From: Tetraselmis striata
Taxonomy: Eukaryota; Chlorophyta; Chlorodendrophyceae; Chlorodendrales; Chlorodendraceae
Length of the DNA stretch: 64,000 nucleotides
Assembly: GCA_006384855.1 (NCBI GenBank)
Contig: VCJN01002783.1
Span: 79,883 to 143,882 of the forward strand
Direction of reading: 5' to 3'
Shown: positions 17,596-57,809 of the stretch, piece after piece
Position numbering within the stretch: the stretch's first letter is position 1
Layout: each line of letters starts with the position of its first letter
Notes under the pieces: model-generated
What the model was told of the DNA's origin: nothing
The model's input: only the letters and a program-made list of their open reading frames with translations
Database searches by the model: none
Program-made: the position numbers and the translations under genes

Positions 17596-17597
17596 CA

Positions 17598-17865
17598 GGT
17601 GCTACAGGTACCCTTGATTTGCTACATTTATTTTCCCCCTGCGTGGGCCACTGTGTGTGCTAACTCGGTGGCTATACCCTAATGCTGTAGTATTATGGAA
17701 GCCTGTAGGACTACTGGAATGGATAGCATTACCGCTAACAGTACTACAGCCTACAGGCTTCCATAAGCAGGTAGTACTACAGCATTAGGGTATAGCCACC
17801 GAGTTAGCACACAGTGGCCCGCGCAGGGGAAATAAATGTAGCAAATCAAGGGTACCTGTAGCACC
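17598..17865. mobile_element. Long-arm foldback element
   Basis: Two near-perfect inverted arms of about 112 bp surround a spacer of about 40 bp. The left arm opens GGTGCTACAGGTACCC and the right arm closes GGGTACCTGTAGCACC. It has no ORF, and no clear target-site duplication was found. It ends three bases before a retrotransposon 3' fragment. Confidence 0.85.
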
Positions 17866-17928
17866 TTACTCATCCATCCCGCCTTATGCGGGATGCGGGC
17901 CGCTTTTAGGCGCCTTGCTGCGTTGATT
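17866..17928 (+). mobile_element. 3' fragment of the non-LTR retrotransposon
   Basis: Matches the last coding codons and stop of the reverse transcriptase ORF ending at 33742 (the HPSRLMRDAGRF segment, then TAG) plus the first bases of its 3' tail. It contains the hairpin ATCCCGC-cttat-GCGGGAT. The tail continues at 21150 after the inserted split-repeat element. Confidence 0.85.
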
Positions 17929-18226
17929 GATCTAAACTAGTTTATGGGGTTTCCATCCTTGACCTAACCGCTTTTCAGCTACAAGTGCTGCGCAGTGGTA
18001 CGGGAACTAGTAACTGTTGTTGCGCCCTTGTTGGGTACAGCACGAGTAGACATAAAAGCAGCCAGAACAGCTGAGCCTGCCATCTTCCAGTTTTCGCTGC
18101 GTTCCACGCAGCGATGTAAAAACTGTCTCGTAACCCGTTGCGAGCAAGGTCACCCCAGGTTGTTCAAGACCACACCCGGCTCGCCATCCGAGTGTGATAT
18201 TCTCGTCCGTACGTCCGTGCGTTACT

Positions 18227-19102
18227 ATGTCAGATGGAGAAGAACCCGTCGCTGAGCCGACGTTGGAGTCGCTGAACGCAGATATGAGGGCCCAGTCTTC
18301 ATTACTGCGAGAGCTGGCTACAGCTGTGGCACAATTGACGGTTCGTGATCGCGTTGTTGATGGAGAAGGAGCACATGGCTCCGGCTCAGGGCAGCGTTTC
18401 GCGAGACAGCCGACAGGCAGCGGGGGAGCCGCAGAGCGCCCCGACTTGCTAGAGCTAGCCCAGAGCGGCCGTGTCGGAGCAAAATCCGTGAGTGCCGAGG
18501 ATGATTACCTCGCGGTGCCAGAGCTACTGCAGAGAGCAGAGTCTGGTTACGAGGCCGTTCGACCGGTCAGCCGAGTGCCTGGACTTTTCCCTTTGAGCAC
18601 CGACCTAACGAACGAGTACCTCAAGCAGGATGACCGGCGTCTGCCGGCCCAGGAGGAGTACTTGTGGATGTCGTGTTTCGGGGCTCACATGGCCGCCCTT
18701 TTCGTGGCGCTCGACGAGCTACTGCCCTACGTCCCTACCAGCAACCAGGACTTCACCCCCTACCTCGCGAGAGCCCGGAACCACGCCGAGGCCATCGACA
18801 AGGCGTTTCGGTTTCGTTTGGCCTTCCTACGGAAGCTCAATGAGATCAAGCGTGTGCACGGTGACCAAGGTGTTCTGGACGTGCTGCGAGCCCAGCATTT
18901 TCAGCCCGCTTCGGAGCATCTGGGTTCCGCGATTTTTGGGGACCTCATGCGGGACTACGAGCGTCGTGTCTTCGAGGCGACCGTTGCCAGCAGCGCCAAG
19001 GCGACCGCTACTTCTCGAGTGGCGGCTGCAGTTGCAGGTCGCGGGCGAGGGCGAGGACGTGGCGGAGGACGTGGACGTGGCCGCGAAGGTGAGCACGAGT
19101 GA
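18227..19102 (+). CDS. Gag-like ORF1 of the split-direct-repeat element
   Basis: A 291-residue protein starting at ATG 18227. The N terminus is acidic and probably helical (LLRELATAVAQLTVRD). The middle has a Trp- and Phe-containing helical region (EEYLWMSCFGAHMAALFVAL, then a Lys/Arg-rich helix around RFRLAFLRKLNEIKRVHG). The C terminus is a run of RGRGRG-type repeats, as in RNA-binding nucleocapsid tails. I infer a structural nucleic-acid-binding role from position and composition; no domain was identified. It ends in TGA followed by CGG, and the same frame stays open into the recombinase ORF. A decayed homologue lies at 57523-56635 on the minus strand. Confidence 0.8.
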   Translation: MSDGEEPVAEPTLESLNADMRAQSSLLRELATAVAQLTVRDRVVDGEGAHGSGSGQRFARQPTGSGGAAERPDLLELAQSGRVGAKSVSAEDDYLAVPELLQRAESGYEAVRPVSRVPGLFPLSTDLTNEYLKQDDRRLPAQEEYLWMSCFGAHMAALFVALDELLPYVPTSNQDFTPYLARARNHAEAIDKAFRFRLAFLRKLNEIKRVHGDQGVLDVLRAQHFQPASEHLGSAIFGDLMRDYERRVFEATVASSAKATATSRVAAAVAGRGRGRGRGGGRGRGREGEHE

Positions 19103-19105
19103 CGG
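19100..19105 (+). promoter_or_regulatory. UGA-CGG candidate stop-codon readthrough site
   Basis: A TGA stop directly followed by CGG, between two ORFs in the same frame. UGA-CGG is one of the best-characterised leaky stop contexts in eukaryotic translation. The second element copy keeps GAG-TGA-CGG and an open frame after it. A downstream RNA structure was not tested. Confidence 0.65.
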
Positions 19106-20764
19106 TGTGGGGCGCCGTTCGTCGGAGCTGCAGGAGCCTTGCGAGGCCACCTTTCGGTGACCGCCGCAAGACGCACCCTTGCAGCTCAACGGCGGGATGA
19201 GCGCCCTGTGTCAGGACCTGACCCCCCCACCTTACAGACTTCATTTAGACCTTCCTCGGTGCGGCGCTTCTTACAGCTACAGCCGAGTGCGGCTCAACCA
19301 TCCGCACACCTGCACATGGCGGCTCAACCATCCGCCTTTCGTACAACCCCACCTCTGCGTTCGTCGGTTGTTACACTACGAGTTACAACCGGTTCGCAAC
19401 GACCAAGTTTCGCGCGTGTACGTTACGCACGGGACAGGCGCTACGAGCGCGAAGGGCGCGCGGGGCGGCCCTCCTACCTGAACCTAGCCCCGCAAACCCG
19501 TACTGAAGCTACTGCAAACCCGTCCAGCAACTACCGGCCAACCGCCGGGAACCTAACCGCTGCTGCCGAGTACTTTGCGAACAGTGGCCGTGCCGGTGGC
19601 ACTCTGTCAGTAAAACGACGCACTTACGTAATCGACGAGCCCGCAGCTATCGCTCCGTGGGCTGCGTCACTGCGATCCCGACTACAGGACGCGTTCGGCT
19701 CAGACGAGCTAGGCCAGCGGACACTCGACCTGCTCTCCAGCTCCCTCAGCGCTCAGACCCTCAAGAGCTACGCCGGCAGACTGTCTCAGTTCGCTGAGTT
19801 CTGCCACGACTCCGAGAACATCAGCCCGCTGGAGGCGACTACTGCTACTGTTGTTCGGTACGTTGCCTGGATCGGGGAGCGAGGGCACATCGCAGCTAAG
19901 TCGCTGCAGCCCTACCTGTCTGCAATCAACACCTTCTTCGAGCTGCACAACCTCGTCCCGATCGCCAAGGACAGCCTACACCTCACTTCGGCAAGGCGTG
20001 GGTTAATGTTGCGGCAGCGCCGACTGGACGCTGCCCCCTTGCGTGTCCCTCTGCCTGCGGATGTAGCTTACCGCTTCGTCTCAAAGGCCGAGCTAATTGT
20101 GTCTGCTCCTTACCCAGAGTCCCACCTCGACTACCGAGCCCTCTTGGCCTCGGTTGTCAACTTCCTGTTCTTTGCCAGGGGCCTTACTGGCGTCTCCTGT
20201 CGAGCGCAAGATGTGCATGTCGACACCTACAACATCACCTTGCAAATCTACCGCGAGAAGGGTCGCGCTGGCCGTCGGGGACCCGACGACCTGCGCGTAC
20301 TTCTCCTTCCAGTGTCCGAGCACCCTCGAGTGGCACGACTCTTGCGCTACTTCATCGACAACGTCCAGTCTGTCCCCCTGGTTACTGTTGGCTTGGCTGC
20401 CTCCAACTTCTGGGCTGTCACTGTGGCTGAGCAGTCAAAACCTTGGACTGCGGCTACGATGTCAGACTGGTTGTCTACAGCGGTCAACCTAGTCAACGCT
20501 GCCCCTCCTGCTGGCACTTCCTGGACTTCACACAGTCTACGTAAGGGCGCAGCCTCTGCAGCAAACGCCATCGGAGCGCCACTGTCCCACATCCGCTACC
20601 AAGGCGGTTGGGCCACTAACTCCGATGTCGTTCTGGACTACATCGACCCCAACGTTCTTCCTTCTCCTGGCGCGTGGTTCTTCTTTGGACACATCGCCCC
20701 CCTCCGCCACTTCCAAGTCCAACAGGACTCCGCAGCGGTGGCCTTCCCAGTGCCTCCTTCATGA
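19103..20764 (+). CDS. Tyrosine recombinase of the split-direct-repeat element, probable readthrough product
   Basis: The frame is the same as ORF1 and is open from the codon after its UGA (19100-19102) to TGA at 20762-20764. The first in-frame ATG lies well inside, so readthrough or an unseen start is needed. The C-terminal half is a tyrosine recombinase: an N-terminal SAM-like domain (TLKSYAGRLSQFAEFC), a catalytic Arg region near FLFFARGLTGVS, the HSLRKGAA box with His and Arg, GGWATNSDVV, and the presumed nucleophile Tyr in VLDYIDP. It would cut and rejoin element ends at the B-A junction, giving insertion without duplication. There is no reverse transcriptase or RNase H motif before or after it. 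Confidence 0.88.
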   Translation, partial: RCGAPFVGAAGALRGHLSVTAARRTLAAQRRDERPVSGPDPPTLQTSFRPSSVRRFLQLQPSAAQPSAHLHMAAQPSAFRTTPPLRSSVVTLRVTTGSQRPSFARVRYARDRRYEREGRAGRPSYLNLAPQTRTEATANPSSNYRPTAGNLTAAAEYFANSGRAGGTLSVKRRTYVIDEPAAIAPWAASLRSRLQDAFGSDELGQRTLDLLSSSLSAQTLKSYAGRLSQFAEFCHDSENISPLEATTATVVRYVAWIGERGHIAAKSLQPYLSAINTFFELHNLVPIAKDSLHLTSARRGLMLRQRRLDAAPLRVPLPADVAYRFVSKAELIVSAPYPESHLDYRALLASVVNFLFFARGLTGVSCRAQDVHVDTYNITLQIYREKGRAGRRGPDDLRVLLLPVSEHPRVARLLRYFIDNVQSVPLVTVGLAASNFWAVTVAEQSKPWTAATMSDWLSTAVNLVNAAPPAGTSWTSHSLRKGAASAANAIGAPLSHIRYQGGWATNSDVVLDYIDPNVLPSPGAWFFFGHIAPLRHFQVQQDSAAVAFPVPPS

Positions 20765-21149
20765 CTTGGCGCTACCCCTTCTCCGTCAATCCACCGCTCT
20801 CTACGTTCGCTCAAGACTGGCAAAACCAGACTCAACTTTGAAATGATCTAAACTAGTTTATGGGGTTTCCATCCTTGACCTAACCGCTTTTCAGCTACAA
20901 GTGCTGCGCAGTGGTACGGGAACTAGTAACTGTTGTTGCGCCCTTGTTGGGTACAGCACGAGTAGACATAAAAGCAGCCAGAACAGCTGAGCCTGCCATC
21001 TTCCAGTTTTCGCTGCGTTCCACGCAGCGCCCCCCCTGACTCCGTTTTCCCTCCACGCTTTTCGCTAAACCTTCCTGCCAATTTCGGCTCTTGACCGTGT
21101 AAAACAGCCTGCGCGACCTTTTTGGCAAAACCAGACTCAACTTTGAAAT

Positions 21150-24428: not shown

Positions 24429-24525
24429 CTTTCGCGTAAATCTTGACATTCGCGGTATTAACGGTACGGTACCGTATCATGAAGCCCGTGACGGTATATG
24501 TTGTACATCCTCGTTTATATGTATT

Positions 24526-27181
24526 GATTCAAACATGTTTATGGCCCAACCATGTTGGCTGTCCTAGTGTAACCCTTACGGTCTGCTGGTGGTTTCAACC
24601 GGTTCTTGAGTTACCGATACTACCAGGTTTCAGTATGGGATGCCTCATCGCTCGTGAGCCCTGCGTTCCCGGCCGGGGAGCTACTTAGGATAGCCACCAC
24701 CAGATCTCCTGCTATCTTCCAGCTCGTTGCCTTGGGCAGCGGCTTTGCGTACTTGTGCGCGTGAGGGTCGCAGAGGCTAATAAGTCCGCACCGAGGTTCC
24801 TTTCCGGGTAGTCAGTCGTCCGGCCACGCACATGCGTTACATTATCGGCAGCGATAGACAGCCCCTCGGTAGTGTGTACTAGTTTTCCCGACTCGTGCGC
24901 CCGAAGTTGTTCTCCGCTCTTGCCATGGTTTCGCAGCTAGGACGTTTTCTGGTGGCGATGTGCATGGTATGGAATTTGAGCTGGGGGTCCCCATTTCCGG
25001 GGTTTAAACCTCAACACCCGAAGCCAAGTGAGTCGCCGTACGGGCTTTTGTGGGCTTCCGCAATGGAGAACCTTCTCGCAATAGTCAACTCTTGAGATTA
25101 GGTGGGGCGGACGCGCTAGGTACCATTGGCCGTTGCTCGTCACGGTTGTCAACGACGATAATTACGCCTGCCGCAACAAATCGGCGCGGACGGAGGAGGG
25201 CGTCTGAGTCGTCCGGATGGCCGTTTGCCGTCGTGCAAGGCACTTCAACTCGGTCCTCGGATCCTCGCAGCATAGCATCGAGGCATCGACGGTCGTTGCG
25301 CGATGTAGTTTTTTCCGAACCACCCACGTAATTGATCCGTATGGGGGATGGCGCCGCTCATGCGCATGTATTGTGAGAGGGCTCGTTGCCCTCGCCCTAA
25401 CCGTGCCCCAGCAACGTTTACCGTGGATGCAGTGGGAAGCGTCTTCGCGGTTCAGTTCGTCGCATTTCCGACGCTACCGCCTACTGCAACGTTGTCATCA
25501 CAAGGACGATGGCAACCTGCTGGAACTGCCCGTTGGGGGGGCAGTTTTACAACTGGACGTGCTCGACGTCTCGTGGTGCCCATAGCCACCCTTTATTTCC
25601 GGCTCCCGGTCTGTAACCTCGGCGGCCGTCGCTAGTGCGGCAGCGGCGGCTGCGTCGTCATTACTTTCGTCCCATCAACATTGGCATCGATGCGGGACGG
25701 CGTAGGCTTTCAGATCCTCTACGCCGGCCAACCCGTTCCCGACTTCACGACATTCTACCTTTGACATCACGAGTTGATCCCCGCCGGGGGGCAGCTCCGC
25801 CACTTGGCGCGACCTATGCGTTTCGTGGCATCGTCGCAGGTCTGCGACTTGTGAGGCGGTTGGCCGCCGTCGCTGGTGCAGCAGCGACGGCCGCCTTGCC
25901 ACACCCCGCGAAGCGAGACCCGCGACGACGACCCACTTACCGAGTCGGCGGGTCTTCTGCGACATCGCCGGCAACCGACCCCGACACACATCAAAACCGG
26001 TACGGCACGACCACAATGGGCCCCATGTGCCCGCGCCCCGATGCGTTATTCGTTTCAGGTGCCGCCTCCCTTGCATAGCGGCGAAACGACCGCCGCTGGT
26101 GATGGCAGCGGCCATACACCACCGTCGTCGCGCGGCGTCACGTGTTCACCCCTCGTAATGGACACCGCCGGTACATAAGCAGGGTCACCGTCGCGTCCCG
26201 TACATCGTACCGTACTCCACCTAGCTGAACGTAGTGACGCTATTTTGGTGAACTCGTGCGCTATTTTAGCATGCGCAGCCCGTACTCATCGTATATGTGT
26301 TGCTCTGTTGGGCACTCGCCAACCTGCCCGGTCATGATAACCCGTATTTCCGGTTCCGGTCGCGCGCCGCCACGGCGCGCGGCAATTGCCGCACGGCGCC
26401 ATTGGGAGACGGCGCCTCCGTACCTTTGCAGCGCGTCCGGCCTTATGTCGCTCCGACATTCGCCGGCGCCAACGTCTCCCATCCGCGTGCGTATGCTCTA
26501 CGCATCATGCGCCTCGATCGAGGTCCCTGCACGTCTTGGCTCTCGGCGCGAGACCCCCTACAAACCAAAACGTTTTCCGCCTTCGTCGTGTCGGCACGCT
26601 TGCCGACTGCCCACGCTCGTAGTCGTAAATGAATCGCGTGTAACTGGCAAAACCAGACTCCATTCATGCAAGTTTGAAATGATTCAAACCTTTTATGGGG
26701 TTTCCCAACGATGTGGGCTCTCTTAGTGCAACCAGTACGGTCTGTTGGTGGTTTTAACCGGTTGAGTTACTGGTACTGTTGTGTGCGGCGTCGTCCCTTT
26801 CAATCCGCCATGTGTGGGTCATGACGCGAGCCGGGCATTGTGGGAGGGAGCGTGAAGCACGGAGAGTGCCTGGTTACAGAGAAGTGACCAGGCCCGCATG
26901 GGCGCTGCACGCATCTAGACAGGCGTTACGGTGCCAGGTGCGCGCTCACAGTGCTAGTGCGGACAATCAATGAGGATTTGTACTAAAGTACTAAGGTATA
27001 CCCTAGCTACATGGTACATAAGCAATAGTGTACCAACACTTATGTCAACAAGTACCCTAGGTTTCAGTACGGGCTGCCCATCGCCCGTGAGCCATGCGTT
27101 CCCGACCAGGGACCTTCTTCACACGACAGCCACCACCAGCTACTCGCCTGCCATCTTCCAGCTCGTTGCCTTGGGCAGCGC
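24526..27181 (+). mobile_element. Second, non-coding split-direct-repeat element
   Basis: A1 (24526-24741) starts GATTCAAAC and ends CCTTGGGCAGCG. A2 (26681-27181) has the same ends. B1 (26645-26680) starts TGGCAAAACCAGACT and ends TTTGAAAT, like the B repeats of the 17929 element. A2 is split by a solo LTR (26777-27050). The A repeats have diverged clearly, so this copy is older. The interior, 24742-26644, has no frame resembling Gag, recombinase or reverse transcriptase, and no B2 was found. It is probably a non-autonomous relative. Confidence 0.75.
26777..27050 (-). mobile_element. Solo LTR of the TRIM-like family
   Basis: 274 bp with matching ends TGTTG and CAACA, flanked by GGTAC (26772-26776) and AGTAC (27051-27055), a 5-bp target duplication with one mismatch. 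On the minus strand it reads TGTTGACATAAGTGTTGGTA and aligns with the LTRs at 46441, 47244, 53409 and 54673. The interrupted sequence realigns with A1 of the host element once it is removed. Confidence 0.85.
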
Positions 27182-28030
27182 CGTCCCGTTTGCCGTTCCC
27201 GTTTCGTCCTTTCATTTATTCGTCGCTACCAGTATACATTATTGCGACCATTAATTATCTTTAGCAGTAGTCGCTAAGTAGCAGCATTGCCAGAGTATCT
27301 AGCGACAACTACCTTTTGGAACTAGTTTTAGCAGGAGGTGGATTTGTTTATGCCCCTTCTGTATTTCACGCCGCCGCGGTATACGACACTACCGTCGTAC
27401 TGATGTAGTGATGTGGCGGTCGCTGATGGATGTTTTTGGCGCGCTCCCGATGGCTCCACGCGCTGACACGATGGCTTTAGCATCACGGGCCTCCACCTTG
27501 TCGGGCTGCCATTTACGGGCTACTGTACCTGTATCCCAGTATACCGACGGGGGAGAGCTCATCGGGCGGAGGGGCGAGAATAATGCCGAGCTGTCGTAGC
27601 AGATTGTATCTTCTTGGTTACAGGGAGAGCGTCAGGAGAAGCAGAGCCTGCAATAATATAAGGGTTTCACTGTTTAACGTTACAGTCATGTCCCGGGGGC
27701 GAAAAACAATGCAAAGCAGTCGCATAGCGACTACACAGGAACTGGTGTGAATTACAAAAAGGGCGGTGACAATCCACCTCTATACTACCGGTACTGTACT
27801 GCTAAAAGGAACTGGAAATGGTACGAGTACGAGTACCGTAGCGGCAAGAATGCCAGCAGCAGCAGCAGCAGCAGGCGGGCGGTGTTGTCAAGAGCAGTGC
27901 CTGGGCCAGCACGAGGCCGACAGTCGGCAGCCAGTAAACACTTTCCGGCCATTCCTGTCGCCTGGAGGTGTGAAGCAGCATTGCAGCGGCGCGCCGACTG
28001 CCTGCAACCAAGGAGGATTGACAGCGGGGC
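27182..28030. other. Intergenic region before the ankyrin gene
   Basis: Contains a partial family-2 short repeat 3' end (about 27655-27715), an inverted GGGAACTGCC-type block near 27740-27770 and a (CAG)n run at about 27853-27872. No gene is recognised. Confidence 0.45.
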
Positions 28031-30841: not shown

Positions 30842-33742
30842 GATTTTAATTTCGTCACTAACAGCGCTAATAAGATTTATGGTTGGACTGTGTCGCGGGC
30901 ACCGAAACGGGCAAACGGGCATCTTCTAAAGCAACTCAAGCAGCACGTGGCGGCGGGGCCCTCAGGCATGCGCAACGAGTATCTCCGCTGCTTGGTGGGC
31001 GAATACGCCCCGGCGTCCGGGCCCGCGGCAGTCCGCGCCATGTCGGAGGTTGCCTCCATGTACCTCCAAGGCCGCCTGCCCGGGTGGTTCAACCGGCTCT
31101 TCGCCTCTGCTAGGCTCGTGGCACCTGTCAAGAAGCTAGGCGAGGGGAGGGCCCCGGACGTGCGGCCTGTGGCAGTCGGGGAGGCGGAGCGGCGCGCAGC
31201 GGAGCGGGCAGTGGTTGACAACATGAAGGAGGCATACGTGTCGGTGCTTGCTCCATCTCAGCTCGGCGTTGGCATTCCCGCGGGCGACTCTGTGCTCATC
31301 CACGGCGTCCGGCTCATCGCCGAGAAGCTTGGCCCACGTGCCGTCATCGTCCACACAGACCTTCGCAACGCTTACAACGAAGCATGGCGCCGCACCATCA
31401 TCCAGCGCCACATCGATTGCTCTCCACTGCACCCTGTCATCCCTGCGCTCCTAGCCTCCCTCTCCACGGACTCGTATCTGGTCGTGGACGACCGGTCCGT
31501 CCCTCTGCGGTCGGAGGACGGCGTGCAACAGGGCGCACCTTTGGCCACGACTTCCTTTTGCGTCGCGATTCACCCCGAGGTGCAGCAGTGTGATACCACG
31601 TTGGAGGTCAATGACGGGGCGGCGCGCTTCAACGCCGACGATGGAATTTTGGTGGGCCTTCCGGAGCACGTTTGGCCGGCTCTTCACGCCTTCCGCTCGT
31701 CCATCAAGGCGTCCGTGGGGCTTGAGGTGCGCTTCGACAAGATGCAGGCGTACAGCGCAGACATGGAGGCGGCGCGGCGTGAGGCTCCGGCCGACATCGA
31801 GTGGCCAGAGCTAGATGGCCATCACGGCATCGCGGTCCTCAACGTGCCGCTCGGATCGCCACAGTATGTGCAGGCGTACATGCGCGGCAAGGCGGAGGAG
31901 CTACGAGAGGAGGTGGACGCTAGCCTGAGCAAGCTTCTGTCTGCCAAGCCCAGCCGTCGGTACACCCACGCCTTGCATCACCACGCATGGGCCCTGCTCA
32001 AGCATTGCATGCAACACAAGGCGGGGTATTGGCTCCGCAATTGTCTTCCGTCCGAGGTGGAGGCCTTTGCGGAGGCGGTGGATGCCACCATCCTCGCGGC
32101 GGTCGAACGGGTGCTAGGGGTCTCTTTTGATCCCTCCACGTACGGCACCGACACCAATCCGGTGGTCACCGATTTCTTGGCCGAGCTTTTGCACGACCCC
32201 GACCCCATGGCAGCGGAGGTGGCTACCTTGAGCGAGGATGCAGTGGCCAGGGCGCGCAGCAGGCTTCACCTCCCCACTCGATTGAAGGGAGCTGGCATCC
32301 GCCGCATGGCTACCGTTCGTGATGCCGCCTTCATCGGCTGCATGAACACCATCCTCCCAAGGTTCCTGGCTAGGAACTCCGGCACCAACACCCCCACCCC
32401 TGGTTTCTTCGACCCACAGCTCGGGTCCGTACTTGGCCGAGGCAGCTTCAACGCAAATTCTTCCGCCCGCCAGTATGACCACTTCCTCAACGATGCTCAT
32501 GGGTCGGACAGCTACGCCGCGGAGATGCGCGAGGCGTGGGGCCGCCTCCAAGCGGCTACTGCTGGCCATCTCGGCGACGCAGATGCACGCCAGATGGAGC
32601 GGGAAGTGGAGGCTGCGTCGGGCTCGCAAAAGGAGCTGACGGCATTTCTAGACCAGGCCAACAACTCCCGGCTTCGAAATGAGGTGTGCGCTCTCACTGC
32701 CACATGTAGGGAACGGATCTTGTTCAACCAGCTCGACGCGGCGTCAGGCATGTGGACAGTGGCCATCCCCGCCGCGCGGACAGCCATGACTCCGCATGAG
32801 CTGCGAGAGGTCGCTGCCGGGTACTTCTTTCTGCCTAGCCCGTGCTTGGCCCCGGTGGTTGGGTGCCAGATTATTCTGCCCTCGACGGAGCACAACCCCG
32901 TCATTGTTGATCTATACGGCGACGCGCTCATGAACCTCCCGGCGCCTGGAGACGCTCACTGGCGTGTACAGCACGACGCTATCGCAGATGCCTTCCGCGA
33001 TCACTGTGTTCACGACCTAGGTATCGCGGTACGGCGGGAGGTGGATGACTTGTTCCAGCAGGCAGTGCCTCTCGGCAACACCGTACCCCGGAATGAACTC
33101 AAGGACCTAGTGCCGGACGCAGAGCTCTCCCTTCCGGCGTTCAACGTCGTGACCGGGAGCTATGATCCCCGGAGCTTGAAGTCCACGCTGCTAGAGTTCA
33201 AGACTATGCGGTACGGGGTCAAGTACACTTCAGTGCCCCGGGCCACAGCTGTGGATCGGTTTGAGCGCTCCCTGTTGGGCGACATACAACGGGGGTTGGC
33301 TGCGCGGGACGCGGCGTGGCACAACACAGAGCCCGGACAGAAGGGTCCTCTTCGAGACATCCTGGATATGTCGGAGTACACGGGCATGGTCTTCGGCACA
33401 GTGGGTGAGGTGAGCAAGGGGGTGCACCGCACCTTGCGTGGTATCGCATGCTTGGCTGCGGACCAGGGTGCCCTCTCATCGCGGGGCACTCGGTGCATCA
33501 CCCGGGCTCACCAGGAGGCCTTGCTCGCAAGAGATTTCCTCGGGGTCCTGAGCTTGGTGGCCGCTCGAGAGCGTGCTCGCTGCCTCATCAGACGGCGCAG
33601 ATTCGTCTCCCATCCCGTTGTTGAAGCTGCACAGCACGTCCGAGGATCACCTACACACACACGTGCTCGCGTGGCCCGGACTCTGAACCGTGTGCGCATC
33701 ACTCATCCATCCCGCCTTATGCGGGATGCGGGCCGCTTTTAG
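30842..33742 (+). CDS. Non-LTR retrotransposon reverse transcriptase with C-terminal nuclease-like domain, 5'-truncated
   Basis: The frame opens after TAA at 30839 and has no N-terminal ATG, so the 5' part is missing. Reverse transcriptase motifs in order: AAGPSGMRNEYLR, RPVAVGEAERR, HTDLRNAYNEAW (catalytic Asp), GVQQGAPLATTSF, and FNADDGILVG as the (Y/F)xDD box. About 950 residues remain. Toward the C terminus, HDAIADAFRDHC, RREVDDLF and LLEFKTMRYG suggest a restriction-like endonuclease, so the element would belong to the site-nicking, RLE-type non-LTR group. The CRE/SLACS group is possible, but I see no CCHC knuckle. The frame has no internal stops and looks young. The TAG stop lies in a conserved hairpin region also present at 17866. 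Confidence 0.88.
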   Translation, partial: DFNFVTNSANKIYGWTVSRAPKRANGHLLKQLKQHVAAGPSGMRNEYLRCLVGEYAPASGPAAVRAMSEVASMYLQGRLPGWFNRLFASARLVAPVKKLGEGRAPDVRPVAVGEAERRAAERAVVDNMKEAYVSVLAPSQLGVGIPAGDSVLIHGVRLIAEKLGPRAVIVHTDLRNAYNEAWRRTIIQRHIDCSPLHPVIPALLASLSTDSYLVVDDRSVPLRSEDGVQQGAPLATTSFCVAIHPEVQQCDTTLEVNDGAARFNADDGILVGLPEHVWPALHAFRSSIKASVGLEVRFDKMQAYSADMEAARREAPADIEWPELDGHHGIAVLNVPLGSPQYVQAYMRGKAEELREEVDASLSKLLSAKPSRRYTHALHHHAWALLKHCMQHKAGYWLRNCLPSEVEAFAEAVDATILAAVERVLGVSFDPSTYGTDTNPVVTDFLAELLHDPDPMAAEVATLSEDAVARARSRLHLPTRLKGAGIRRMATVRDAAFIGCMNTILPRFLARNSGTNTPTPGFFDPQLGSVLGRGSFNANSSARQYDHFLNDAHGSDSYAAEMREAWGRLQAATAGHLGDADARQMEREVEAASGSQKELTAFLDQANNSRLRNEVCALTATCRERILFNQLDAASGMWTVAIPAARTAMTPHELREVAAGYFFLPSPCLAPVVGCQIILPSTEHNPVIVDLYGDALMNLPAPGDAHWRVQHDAIADAFRDHCVHDLGIAVRREVDDLFQQAVPLGNTVPRNELKDLVPDAELSLPAFNVVTGSYDPRSLKSTLLEFKTMRYGVKYTSVPRATAVDRFERSLLGDIQRGLAARDAAWHNTEPGQKGPLRDILDMSEYTGMVFGTVGEVSKGVHRTLRGIACLAADQGALSSRGTRCITRAHQEALLARDFLGVLSLVAARERARCLIRRRRFVSHPVVEAAQHVRGSPTHTRARVARTLNRVRITHPSRLMRDAGRF

Positions 33743-43779: not shown

Positions 43780-45330
43780 GCCCATGCAACGCGGCGTGGC
43801 TGCTCCCCCTACAACGCGGCGTGGTTGGACCCTACGTGCGAGGCGGTGGACTCGCCGCACCTACCGGAATGATGCGGACTGGCGCCGAGAGAACAACTAG
43901 TACAACGCATCATGCCCCATGCTACCCGACCTTGTGCATAAACTGCAACAGAGTGGCGCGGCGGCTATGTTGATCGCGCCTCGGTGGGAAAGCAAGGCGA
44001 GGTACCAGCCACTCACCGAGATGGTGGCGGAGGAGTTTGGCGGTGGAGCCGCGCGCCGGCTAGTTTTGTCCAGGGTGGCGAGGCGGGCAAGGTGTGATCA
44101 GCATGCCTCACTGGCCCGTGACGAGATTCCGCGTACCCTTCTGGTCTAAATCTATCTCCGACGCGGGGCCATGAGTGCTAAGTTACGTTTTTTTCCCGGT
44201 AGCGGCCACCCACTGCCGGTGGTACATGTAGCACCGGTACGAGCCACGGCAGTGAAGTACGGCGTAGAGGTCGCGGGTTGTACGACGCCATGGGCCGATT
44301 TGACGCGGCCGTACATGTCACAGTTACTAGGGTGTGACACCTTGAGCGCCCAAAACATGGAGCTCTTGTTAGCCGCGTGGGCGCCTACCATGGGGGCATC
44401 GTACGCCAGTTGCATGAAGCGGTACCTCCGCTTCTGCGAGGAGGATCAGCGGCCACCCCTAGCCGCGGACATAGGTACTACGGTGTGACTCGTCAGGTGA
44501 TTTAGTAACCTTGGGACGATCAACAAGGTAGGCCGTCAACAACTTCTTCAAGGAACCACGGCCGGGAGCAAAGAGTTGTAGGTGATCTTGTGGGCTGGGT
44601 CCCCAAGGGCCTTGCGGCGTCACATGTGACGCTGCACCCCAACTTGATGTGGGCTCCGTTACCCGCACGCGTGGTGTCGAAGGCCATGACCCTAGCTAAA
44701 GCCCTACGCCTAGAGATTGGCCTTACCTTGGGCACTGACCCGGGTACCGTTGTGTGTGTGGAACTATTGTTCCGCGCCAGCTTGGTAGTCGTCGTATTCT
44801 ATCTGTTATTCTCCCGCGGTGTAGCGGCGGCAGTTGAGTGATGCACGGGAGACCTTGCGGACTTGCGGTCACCCCGGACGGCGAGATCCTCCTATACCAT
44901 CGTAACCGGAAGGGCAAGCGGGGCGCTGATGCAAGCAAGAAGTTGATGAATCAGCTGCCAGCGTAAGAGCATGCGGACATCGCGGAGCTGCTGCGATACT
45001 TCGATGCCGCAGGTCACCTGTTTGCCAGCGGGCGCGTGCCAGCGGCGTGATGGGCCATCGCATCGGCCACCGCGGGGGGGGGGCATATCAAGTAAGTGGA
45101 CGGCATACACCCTGCTCACCGGTTAGCTGAGCCGTGCATGAAGCCCCCCCCCCCCACACCCCCCTCACGGGGTTCGCGTTGTTGTCCCACTCCCTCCGGA
45201 AAGGGGCCACTACAACCGCATACGTGATAATCGGCGTGATGATGTAGCCGATCAAGTACTTCGGCGGCTGGGGAATGGAGTCGCGCGTGGTGCTCGACTA
45301 CATCCACCAAACGGCGCTGCCGTGTCCGGC
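43780..45330 (+). pseudogene. Decayed DIRS-like element: RNase H end and tyrosine recombinase
   Basis: The segment 43919-44147 encodes LPDLVHKLQQSGAAAMLIAP followed by RWESKARYQPLTEM, which fits the end of the RNase H region of DIRS-type pol proteins, preceded by a broken DWRREN segment. Next comes a recombinase N-terminal domain (44171-44488, ASYASCMKRYLRFCEED). Then come fragments in other frames near 44868 (VTPDGEILLYHRNRKGKR, LLRYFDAAG) and the catalytic block near 45175-45300 (LSHSLRKGATT, KYFGGWGMESRVVLDYI). Several stops and frameshifts break it. The order is RNase H then recombinase on one strand. Confidence 0.72.
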
Positions 45331-45339
45331 AGCATGTAT

Positions 45340-46440
45340 ATGTCACCTCTTTGGCTAGATAACCCGCCCCTGGGGCGGTCAGCCAGCCGTGCTGCCACGC
45401 AATGATGGGAAACTGCGAGCCCCGTGCTTTGCTATAATGGGTCATATTGAAATTATAGAAGTTCAAATTACACGAGGCCAAGTAGGACGGGTATTATTAC
45501 CCGACGCTAATGATTCTGACGTATGCATCTAGTACGCTACAACCGTGTGTCGGCGTCGACCTCGAACCCCGCCCTATTCTTGCGTTAGTGTAATTATGGG
45601 GCCTGAGCCCATGTATGTGCGAAACATTTCAAGAGATCTGAAACTTTATTATTGGTACATTGCATGCCCCTTGCTTTGCTATTAACATTCTTAACACGTT
45701 GTTTATGCTGGTGCCGTAGTACCGCGCCTGCTGTCTATGTACATCACTAGTTGCAGAGAAAGCATACAGCTGGCCACAAAAGTCTATGCATGATTTGATG
45801 GGTGTTATTCGCTTGAGGCGCTTCTAATCGATAAACGCACGCAAAATCTATGCCCGTTGCGGTCATTGCGGGAAATCTCGTGAAAAGGTGCGCAGGGTCA
45901 ATCTGATATGCAAGGGTCAATCTTACGGTGTTTGGTGCGCAAAGTCAATCTGGTGTGCTAGGGTCAATCTAACGGTGTGCGGTGCGCCGCACGCGGCACT
46001 TGTCATTGGGTAGCGTCAGTTCAACGTTTGAAGAAGGGGTTGGTGGCCGGTTTGAGGCATGGCACGCCGACATCTGAACATAAAGAACCGCGTTTTTCTC
46101 CCATGGTCGTTAAGATACATGTCTGAGCCCCCTACCCCGTGATGCTCGGCGAATGGTTTACCGTCTATGGTCAGCTAGCGGGCTACATGCGACATTCGCA
46201 AACTGGATGTTCGCTATGCAAAGAGCGGCACTCTTAGCTTGCAATCACGCGGAAATTCATATCGATTCGCCCTTTTATAATTAGTAAAACTTAGATTTGA
46301 ATAGCGGGCTAGATAGCCCTTGAGCAGTCCGCTCATTAGCTTATCGTTCCGACAGAACGGCGAAATTACATGGCATGTCAAAGATACCCCCTACGTACTC
46401 TGTCATGCCAGCCAGCCAACGCATTGTGGGTGGGGGCCAT
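45340..46440. other. Intergenic stretch
   Basis: A/T-richer sequence with a minor local duplication (CAGGGTCAATCT and TAGGGTCAATCT blocks near 45890-45970). No gene or RNA is recognised. Confidence 0.4.
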
Positions 46441-55005: not shown

Positions 55006-55503
55006 CATATTTTATATAATTACATCAGGGCTTTCACAAAAGCGCACTACAAAGAGAACTAACAGCAACTATGAAAGGTTGCTGACTTGGGTCGTCATCC
55101 TCTCGATCATCTCGTCCTTCTAGACGATGGAGTTCTGGAGCAAGTCTGGCCTATGCTTAATATTCGACTTTCTTGCCAGCTCCGACTTCAGCTGTTCACC
55201 TTCAGTTTTCTCGGCCCGTAGATCTGCCCATAGAGTGGGGACGTCGCTGGGTAGGTTGATTGGCGTCGGACCTAGGACTCCTGCGTGCCGGACCCGGTGA
55301 TTGTCTAGAGTGTGTCAACGTGATGCGGGGCAGCTTCCGGAGCGGGGCGGCTGAGGGAGGCTAAGTGTAAGGATGGCGGAGGGAAACAAAGTCAGGGGGG
55401 CGCTGCGTGTAACGCAGCGAAATTCAAAGATGCCAGGCTCGGCTGTTACGGCTGCTTTTATGGCTACTCGTGTTGTACCCAAAAGGGCGCAACAACGGGT
55501 GAA

Positions 55504-56618
55504 CTAGGTTGACAGCCGAGGCCATGAGGGCTCGGAAGTCGTACCGGTACTCGGGAAGGAGAGCAAAACAATCAACTCGGTCCGCTCAACGAACATGTAA
55601 TCGACATGAGCAGGCAGCAGGACTCGCAAAGGGGTCGCCTTCATGCGGCGTTGCCTTATTATTAGCCGGCCACGACGCGCAACAGTGGGGTGCAAGTTGT
55701 CCTTAGCGATGAGGTCGATATTGTGGAGTTCGAAGAACATGTTGATTGTTGACATGTAGGGTTGTAACGACTTAGCCCCAATGTGGCCCCGCTCACCAAT
55801 CGAAGCGACGTACCGGACGACAGTGGCAATAGTGGCTTTCCATCGGGCTGATGTTCTCGGAGTCGTGGCAGAACGCTTGCCGGCGTAGCTCTTGCCGGCG
55901 TAGCTCATGCTCTTGCCGGCGAAGTCGGAACGGCTCGCCGGCGTAGCTCTTGAGCGTCTCGGCGGTGAGGGAGCTGGAGAGTATGTCAGGGGCCGTTGTC
56001 CCAACTCGTCGGAGCCGAACGTTTGTTGTACACGGAATCGAAGTGAATCAGTCCATGGGGCGACAGCTTTGGGCTCGTTGATTACGTAAGTACGACGCTT
56101 GGCCGACGGAGCAACATGCGGCCGGTTCATTTCAGCAAAGTACTCGGCCGCGGCAGGTAGGTTGCCGGCGGTTTGTCGGTAATTGTTGAAAGGGTTTGTC
56201 AGGCATCAATACGGGTTTGCGTGGGAAAAGTCAGGTAGGAGGGCCGCCCCGCGCGCCCGTCGCGCTCGTAGCGACTGTCACGCGTGTAACGTACACACGC
56301 GAAAGATGGTCGTGGGGAACCACTTGTAACACGTAGTGTAACAACCGACGGACGCATTCGATTAGATGGTACGGGAGGCGGATTATTGAGCCGCCATGTG
56401 CAGGTGTGCGGATGATTGAGCCGCACTCGGCTGTCGCCGTAAGAAGCACCGCACCGAGGAAGGACTAAATGAAGTCTGTAAAGGGGGGGGGGGGGGGGGG
56501 TCCGGACACATGGCCCTCATATCCCGCCGTTGAGTTGCCAGGGATCGTTGTGCGGCGGTCACCGAAAGGTGACCTCGCAAAGCCTTAGCACCTCCGACGA
56601 AAGGCGCCCCACGCCGTC
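55504..56618 (-). pseudogene. Truncated tyrosine recombinase ORF
   Basis: After the TGA the same frame reads APFVGGAKALRGHLSVTAA, then TYVINEPKAVAPW and FGSDELGQR, as in the intact element. A short insertion of repeated GCCGGCGTAGCTCTT-type sequence lies near 55870-55950, and the frame ends at the deletion junction. All catalytic residues are missing. Confidence 0.8.
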
Positions 56619-56634
56619 ACTCGTGCTCACCTTC

Positions 56635-57523
56635 TCAACCACGCCTGCGACCGCCCCCGCGTCCACGTCCACGCCCGCGTTTAGCTAGCGCCACCGCCAT
56701 CCGAGCAATAGTGGTGGCTTTCGAGCTGCTGGCGACCGTTGCGTTTAAGATGCGACGCTCGTATTCCTTCATCGGGTCCCAGAAAATCGCAGAGCCCAAA
56801 TGCTCAGCGGCATGCATGATGCCTAAAAGTGTTGGGCCCGCATTACGTCCAGCACACCTTGGTCACCGTGCACGCGCTTGATCTCGTTAAGCTTCCGCAG
56901 AAATGCTAGACGAAAGCGAAACGCCTTGTCAATGGCCTCGGCGTGATTCCGGGCGCGCGCGAGGTAGGGGGTGAAGTTTTGATTAGCAACATCAGGGACG
57001 TAAGGTAGCAACTCGTCGAGGGCCACGAAAGAGAAGCTATGTGGACCCCAAAGCACGTCATCCAAAGGTATTCCTCCTGAGCCGGCAGACGCCGGTCATC
57101 TGCTTGAGGTAGTCGTTCACCATGTCACTCCGCAAGGGACATAGGCCATGCACTCGGCTGTCTGACCACTCGAACGCCCTCGTAACCAGACTCTACTCGT
57201 AGCAGTAGTTATGGCACCGCGAGGTGGTCGTCCTCGTCACTCGCGGATTTTACTCCGACACGGCCGCTGTAGGTTAGCTCTAGCAAGTCGGGACCCACTG
57301 CGGCTCCCCTGTTGTCTGTCGGTTGTCCAGTGACGCGCTGCCCGGAATCAAAGCTATGTGCTCCATCTCCATAAATAACACGATCACGAGCCGTCGATTG
57401 GGCCAACGTCGATGTGAGCTTGCGTAGCAATGTAGAGTGGTCATGCATGCTTGCTTGTAGCGATTCGAGCGTCGGCTCGGCGACGGGTTTTTCTCCATCT
57501 GGAATGTTAACGCACGGGCGCAC
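56635..57523 (-). pseudogene. Decayed Gag-like ORF1
   Basis: Fragments MDGEKPVAEPTLESL-like at 57490, LARARNHAEAIDKAFRFRL at about 56920 and a Gly/Arg-rich end at about 56640 match ORF1 at 18227-19102. Stops and frameshifts break it. Like the intact copy, it ends GAG-TGA-CGG (about 56616). Confidence 0.8.
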
Positions 57524-57809
57524 AAATGAGAATTTGACACACTACGGATATTGAGCCGGGTGTGGTCTTGAAACAACCCGTGACCTGCTTGTAACGGGTT
57601 ACAAGACAAATAATCGCTACGTGAAACGCAGCGAAACCGGAAGATGGCAGGCTTAGCTATTACGGCTGCTTTTATGTCTACTCGTGTTGCACCCAAAAGG
57701 GCGCAACAACGGGTTAACTAGTAACCCGTATGTACCACTTAGCAGCAACGGTAGCCGGAAAAGCGGTTAGGAAAGGAGGAAACTCAGATAAACTAGTTTA
57801 GATCAACAC

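Follow-up and report, generated by a model that had tools for sequence, protein, structure and literature searches.

A split-direct-repeat element of Tetraselmis striata with Gag and a tyrosine recombinase but without reverse transcriptase

The element and its encoded proteins

The window analysed here is a stretch of 64,000 nucleotides of the green alga Tetraselmis striata (assembly GCA_006384855.1, contig VCJN01002783.1, positions 79,883–143,882), and it contains an element with the order A1-Gag-YR-B1-A2-B2, in which YR is a tyrosine recombinase and A and B are split direct repeats. The first-pass annotation had described such an element with Gag and recombinase but no reverse transcriptase (RT), and this was confirmed by repeat comparison and Pfam searches. 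The two A repeats are 100% identical over 186 nt and the two B repeats are 100% identical over 27 nt (Table 1). The boundary is ambiguous by one T when judged from the sequence alone; because a T precedes GATC in all 28 distinct copies, the element was placed at TGATC...GAAA, 17928–21148. The inverted terminal repeats and internal complementary regions of DIRS1-like elements were not found, and the three inverted repeats present between 17400 and 21700 all lie outside the element. An inverted-repeat element resembling a miniature inverted-repeat transposable element, with arms of 41–42 nt that are 98% complementary, occupies 17597–17866 to the left of the insertion.

Table 1. Features of the element and of related copies in the window
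Feature	Position	Strand	Description	Basis
A1 repeat	17928–18113	+	Split direct repeat; first base of the element is T at 17928	100% identity to A2
Hairpin	18095–18113	+	Closes the 3' boundary of A1; counterpart in A2 at 21011–21029	z = -4.3
Gag	18227–19102	+	Open reading frame of 291 aa from the ATG at 18227, RG-rich C-terminus, stop UGA at 19100–19102	Open reading frame list, dN/dS, profile match
+1 frame past Gag stop	19101–19160	+	19 codons, then stop	Substitution pattern, 35-nt match to L064
Linker	19161–19639	+	Without clear codon-level constraint	Codon analysis
YR domain	19640–20764	+	Tyrosine recombinase; open frame spans 19103–20764	Pfam, Cre alignment, dN/dS
B1 repeat	20818–20844	+	Abuts A2 directly; sequence equal to the expected circle joint	Repeat comparison
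A2 repeat	20844–21029	+		Repeat comparison
B2 repeat	21123–21149	+	Element end placed at 21148; T at 21149 is target	Repeats, empty sites
Second-family copy	24525–27186	+	Decayed; A and B ends nearly as in the element; B1|A2 at 26645–26705; no B2 found here	
PAT-like relative	43770 (approximate)–45682	+	Decayed; YR pieces 44165–45334, B1 45406–45435, A2 from about 45437, B2 45653–45682	
Sister copy	55378–57805	-	Decayed; 77–79% identity, Gag into YR	Alignment without large gap

The YR frame matched the Pfam domains Phage_int_SAM_1 (5.7e-08) and Phage_integrase (0.0012; 19 bits, below the cut-off of 27.1) and aligned with Cre recombinase (E = 0.0016) across an HxxR...W...Y stretch, which we take to be the catalytic residues. 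The Gag frame gave a chance-level Pfam match only (E = 0.22). Neither frame matched RT, RNase H or a Dam-like methyltransferase domain in Pfam, and a tblastx comparison of the element with the Gag and RT stretch of a relative (L064, described below) gave no match at E = 1e-3. The best protein matches were gene models of T. striata itself (Tetstr1), up to 99% identical, and in five of them (P0001, P0003, P0008, P0084 and P0115) Gag, the +1-frame stretch and YR are joined by varying introns around the Gag stop. One further model, P0081, in which an RT appeared fused to YR, was judged by eye to be a gypsy-type RT (RVT_1 listed) merged by the gene model. A metagenome protein on a 5.8-kb contig (P0002) contains a YR 90% identical to that of the element, and thus a near relative is present in natural samples.

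Copies in the genome and selection on Gag and YR

The genome searched was a 224-Mb assembly of 2903 contigs (labelled here in the style C1 to C2903, with the stretches read labelled L0xx). The DNA search, in which 37 of 3232 first-look candidates were scored, returned at least 39 near-full-length matches, which span 99% or more of the 3221-bp query at 96–100% identity and are 3.20–3.22 kb long, together with two short ones; none of the 39 near-full-length copies among the matches listed has room for an RT. All 110 candidates scored in the YR search, out of 6797, matched. Exact pattern counts across the genome gave 713 B|A joints and 1663 A termini of this family, both of which may be inflated by duplicated haplotypes in the assembly, and their ratio of 0.43 is close to that expected from the layout, in which each joint goes with two A repeats. 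Of the 1663 A sites, the first 100 included 27 A1-A2 pairs spaced by 2.88–3.06 kb, so the check proposed in the first-pass annotation, whether full-length copies carry RT, returned none in the 39 matches listed or in these 27 pairs. A further 46 of the 100 sites, mostly unread, were without such a partner, and one unpaired A site (L066) begins, by eye, an old-looking copy with A1 and Gag. Two other same-strand A spacings below 8 kb, one of 968 bp and one of 5.8 kb, occur on C165, where they fall between neighbouring paired copies. A longer form with these A ends and an RT was looked for in 3.4 kb read between A sites 8.6 kb apart on C1, and no RT-like frame was seen there by eye. The sister copy in the window aligned from Gag to YR without a large gap and is therefore likewise without RT. 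No relatives were found in viral contigs. The element thus belongs to a family that is real, largely intact and numerous. A variant of the A terminus also recurs every 4.42 kb on C1292 (533, 4957 and 9374), forming a large tandem repeat that carries a decayed YR piece on the opposite strand; the 681 bases read there gave only a chance-level RT match (E = 0.011).

For an analysis of coding constraint, 59 hits were condensed to 42 distinct copies. Of the 41 copies spanning Gag, 38 have it intact; the YR frame is intact in 38 of the 42 copies, and 35 have both frames intact, which agrees with the earlier statement that repeats and frames are intact; the UGA stop of Gag was kept in all 42. The ratio of non-synonymous to synonymous substitution rates (dN/dS) was calculated between groups of 27, 3 and 10 copies, comprising 40 of the 42, the remaining two (L058 and L031) being dropped as they fall between the identity limits. 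The comparison of the 27 with the 10 copies gave 33.0 synonymous and 15.2 non-synonymous differences in Gag (dN/dS 0.14), and 25.7 and 3.6, respectively, in YR (dN/dS 0.05). The other two comparisons gave 0.14 and 0.25 for Gag and 0.03 and 0.05 for YR, against 0.92–1.32 for Gag and 2.9–9.7 for YR in +1-frame controls on the same DNA (1.15 and 2.9 for the 27 against the 10). Between the RT-less subfamilies, therefore, purifying selection acts on both Gag and YR. Constraint is weaker over the first 90 codons of Gag, with 10 non-synonymous and 4 synonymous fixed differences.

The first-pass annotation had taken the whole 2.5 kb to be coding; this holds for Gag and YR, which are constrained, but not for some 480 nt between them (roughly 19160–19640), where changes are few and carry no steady codon signature. 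This linker is possibly an intron or a cis signal. Readthrough of the stop, with Gag and YR in one frame across the UGA, was rejected as the main route, the frame-0 dN/dS of the linker being 0.57–2.2. Before the first methionine of the linker the frame-0 value was 1.4–3.3, and after it (19316–19639) it was 0.42–0.43 in two of the three comparisons and 3.25 in the third, while other frames gave 0.48–1.03. The CGG past the UGA is not conserved (TGACGG in 34 and TGATGG in 8 of the 42 copies), although the UGA itself is.

RT-bearing relatives and a family without recognisable genes

A DIRS-like relative had been noted earlier at 43.8 kb. A relative is indeed present there in decayed form, and its group has split direct repeats of the PAT-like kind, which are weak in the window copy (80% over 30 nt) and clearer in L060 and L063. 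The group is abundant; 150 RT loci were scored, 13 of which have an 849-aa open frame without stops. L060 contains an RT/RNase H stretch 58–60% identical to the group with the 849-aa frame (which includes C158), a YR and B1-A2-B2 repeats, and its Dam match is weak (E = 0.0032, below the cut-off). The better preserved element on C158 was read as two stretches, L064 and L065, with 1.4 kb unread between them. It encodes a Gag of 293 aa and an RT with YMDDF (RVT_1, 6.5e-12), has an RNase H match at 2.6e-4 that is below its cut-off, and has the repeat order B1|A2-X-B2. Its YR is 39% identical to that of the element over 161 aa. The Gag proteins of the element and of the RT-bearing family were compared with hhalign (E = 1e-4, probability 57%, 31% over 86 columns), and on this profile comparison they are probably homologous. 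Furthermore, B ends of the form TGGCAAA...AAT and A starts of the form G(A/G)TC are common to the four families read, a stem-loop closes A in the second family described below (z = -3.6) and on C158 (z = -2.3 and -2.4) as it does in the element, and in all three the identity between A copies stops right after it.

The resemblance extends to the end of Gag. In L064 the Gag frame ends at a UGA and the RT lies in the +1 frame, and the surroundings of the two Gag stops are 83% identical over 35 nt (E = 0.001), with TGACGGTGTGG identical. Between subfamilies of the element, 4 of the 5 last fixed differences before the UGA (18980–19100) fall at third positions of the Gag frame, and all 3 fixed differences in 19100–19160 are synonymous in the +1 frame only. 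The pattern at these three sites is suggestive of a kept +1 frameshift, and the 19-codon stretch is a possible relic of a Gag-to-RT frameshift, which would fit an ancestral deletion that removed RT.

A second family with similar ends is also present. A full copy of about 2.45 kb on C75 (L059, C75:8900-11500) has A1, B1, A2 and B2; no Pfam domain was recognised in its longest frame (513 aa), and about 30 long matches to the family were among the matches listed. Its ends are nearly equal to those of the element, which suggests that it may use the recombinase of the element. On C8 (L062, C8:68900-69450) a second-family copy ends directly before the apparent A1 start of a PAT-like element. RT loci on C2849 and C1019, both unread, also have an A variant no more than 3 kb away, on the same strand in the former and on the opposite strand in the latter, and the spacing of the variant at C2849:21932-21951 to RT and YR resembles the case on C8.

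Mode of propagation and its meaning

The A1 and A2 repeats were compared within each of 28 copies that have both (the duplicate L006 being dropped), and 12 A sites were found to vary. At six of these sites (48, 49, 64, 78, 109 and 111) the variant is present in both A1 and A2 of the same copy, and at site 109 three copies have A/A and 25 have G/G with no mixed copy. The other six variants each occur in one repeat of one copy, as expected from mutation after insertion. Since variants are thus shared by the two A repeats of a copy, both repeats derive from one template; this is the case in a retrotransposon cycle, unlike a simple DNA circle, in which A1 and A2 would pass separately.

The insertion itself is precise. 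Two empty sites of one insertion, L067 and L068, were compared: the sequence is uninterrupted at the insertion point on C2804, which is homologous to the window (91% over 720 nt), and on C436, a repeat copy, and the comparison shows neither duplication nor loss, as expected of a tyrosine recombinase. The base after GAAA was T in 16, C in 11 and G in 1 of the 28 distinct copies. Contig C348 has four exact B|A joints at 1472, 4387, 7311 and 10232 (spacing 2915, 2924 and 2921 bp), and is thus an array of tandem A-ORFs-B units (ORFs, open reading frames) without the A2-X-B2 tail. In the RT-bearing family on C158 there is a B2|A1 joint between two elements. Circles carrying B|A joints would be expected to leave both arrangements.

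Taken together, these observations make it likely that the element is a PAT-like retrotransposon offshoot with no RT of its own, that it keeps Gag and YR and that it takes RT in trans, which was the first of the two explanations offered in the first-pass annotation and fits the evidence. The element would make its own Gag and its own recombinase, while PAT-like elements in the same genome would supply the RT/RNase H that copies its RNA. Both ends would then be rebuilt, and a DNA circle closed, by means of the internal B1|A2 joint, as in published models, and YR would insert this circle without duplication, usually beside a pyrimidine.

Several observations weigh against this interpretation. 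The Gag homology is modest, with BLASTP alone giving E = 0.13. Other A ends are weaker, a second-family copy on C8 having z = -1.8 and the decayed window copy (27146–27186) no signal (z = 0.1), and the hairpin energy is ordinary in GC-rich DNA, where -10 kcal/mol or lower was reached by 144 of the 266 44-mers taken from the interior of the element. No element combining this A end with an RT was found, the 9 RT loci on C1–C141 all lying more than 10 kb from an A terminus. The variants shared by A1 and A2 stem from few lineages: those at sites 48, 64 and 111 belong to one copy and that at 78 to another (both of the 96% subfamily), and that at 49 to a third, so that with the polymorphism at site 109 the independent cases number about 4. 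Gene conversion is the remaining route to matching A1 and A2 that does not involve RT.

The second explanation offered earlier, a separate class moving only as circular DNA, is unsupported because A1 and A2 share variants within copies. An RT-independent transposon, in which YR excises and reinserts circular DNA, copies arise via DNA replication and the split repeats are inherited leftovers, would agree with the encoded YR, the lack of RT, the precise insertion and the tandem units on C348, which small circles would give. However, a DNA circle would pass both A repeats independently, a Gag under selection is not obviously needed by a DNA-only transposon, and the internal B1|A2 joint is retained; we consider this explanation improbable. 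A fuller form of it, in which the transposon multiplies as circular DNA without RT, Gag serves another purpose, recombination homogenises the A repeats and the C348 array is a circle product, is slightly less probable still. No better placed is the idea that a single RT-bearing family gave rise to these copies as ordinary deletion defectives, which are moved passively and whose Gag and YR have simply not yet decayed. The Gag-stop context and the 19-codon +1 stretch look like the border between Gag and RT in the RT-bearing family, and RT was therefore probably lost once by deletion; but room for RT is absent from every near-full-length copy listed, the sister at 77–79% identity already lacks RT, and purifying selection on both proteins is seen between the RT-less subfamilies, with the first 90 Gag codons as the exception. 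An RT from an unrelated source is very unlikely, for although a 966-aa open frame resembling that of a long interspersed nuclear element (class by eye) lies nearby at 30842–33742 of the window and P0081 offers a gypsy-like RT, the layout, B ends, hairpin position and Gag/YR homology all indicate PAT-like elements.

The offshoot proposed here was compared with known systems as they appear in the available portions of the cited papers. It shares with the PAT-like/Toc3 elements of green algae (DIRS order) the arrangement A1-ORFs-B1-A2-B2, the YR and the absence of target-site duplication, as well as a Gag without zinc knuckle, the element Gag having one Cys (PMC4157794, PMC3266345). It differs from them in its size of 3.2 kb and in having no RT, RNase H or methyltransferase found, and since these were tested and not found it was not filed as a full PAT element. 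The Ngaro and VIPER elements encode RT/RNase H, which were not found here, and the derivatives described in those portions, Gag-less Ngaro types and the short SIRE element, include none with Gag and YR but without RT (PMC8547959, PMC6681497). Cryptons share a YR without RT and a proposed circular intermediate (PMC3212892), but have no long direct repeats, and Gag is absent from the Crypton description available (PMC4157794), whereas the element has both. The same portions describe YR retrotransposons with RT, Cryptons as YR-only and a short VIPER derivative (PMC4157794, PMC12477816, PMC6681497, PMC3212892, PMC3266345, PMC8547959). No Gag and YR element with split direct repeats and without RT was found in the available portions of the open-licence literature on YR elements. 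Partial coding sets occur in another type of element, for TR-GAG and BARE-2-like elements are non-autonomous elements of the long terminal repeat/integrase type that keep gag only and obtain the polymerase in trans. The present element shares such a partial set and differs in also keeping a recombinase, which is under selection.

The presence of hundreds of copies without RT in which Gag and YR are nevertheless selected suggests that both are needed in cis and that RT can be shared. The RT-bearing, the Gag and YR and the apparently gene-free families of this one algal genome, whose repeats match, make up a natural three-tier set in which a poorly known cycle could be dissected, and with it the circle joint and a possible frameshift from Gag to RT.

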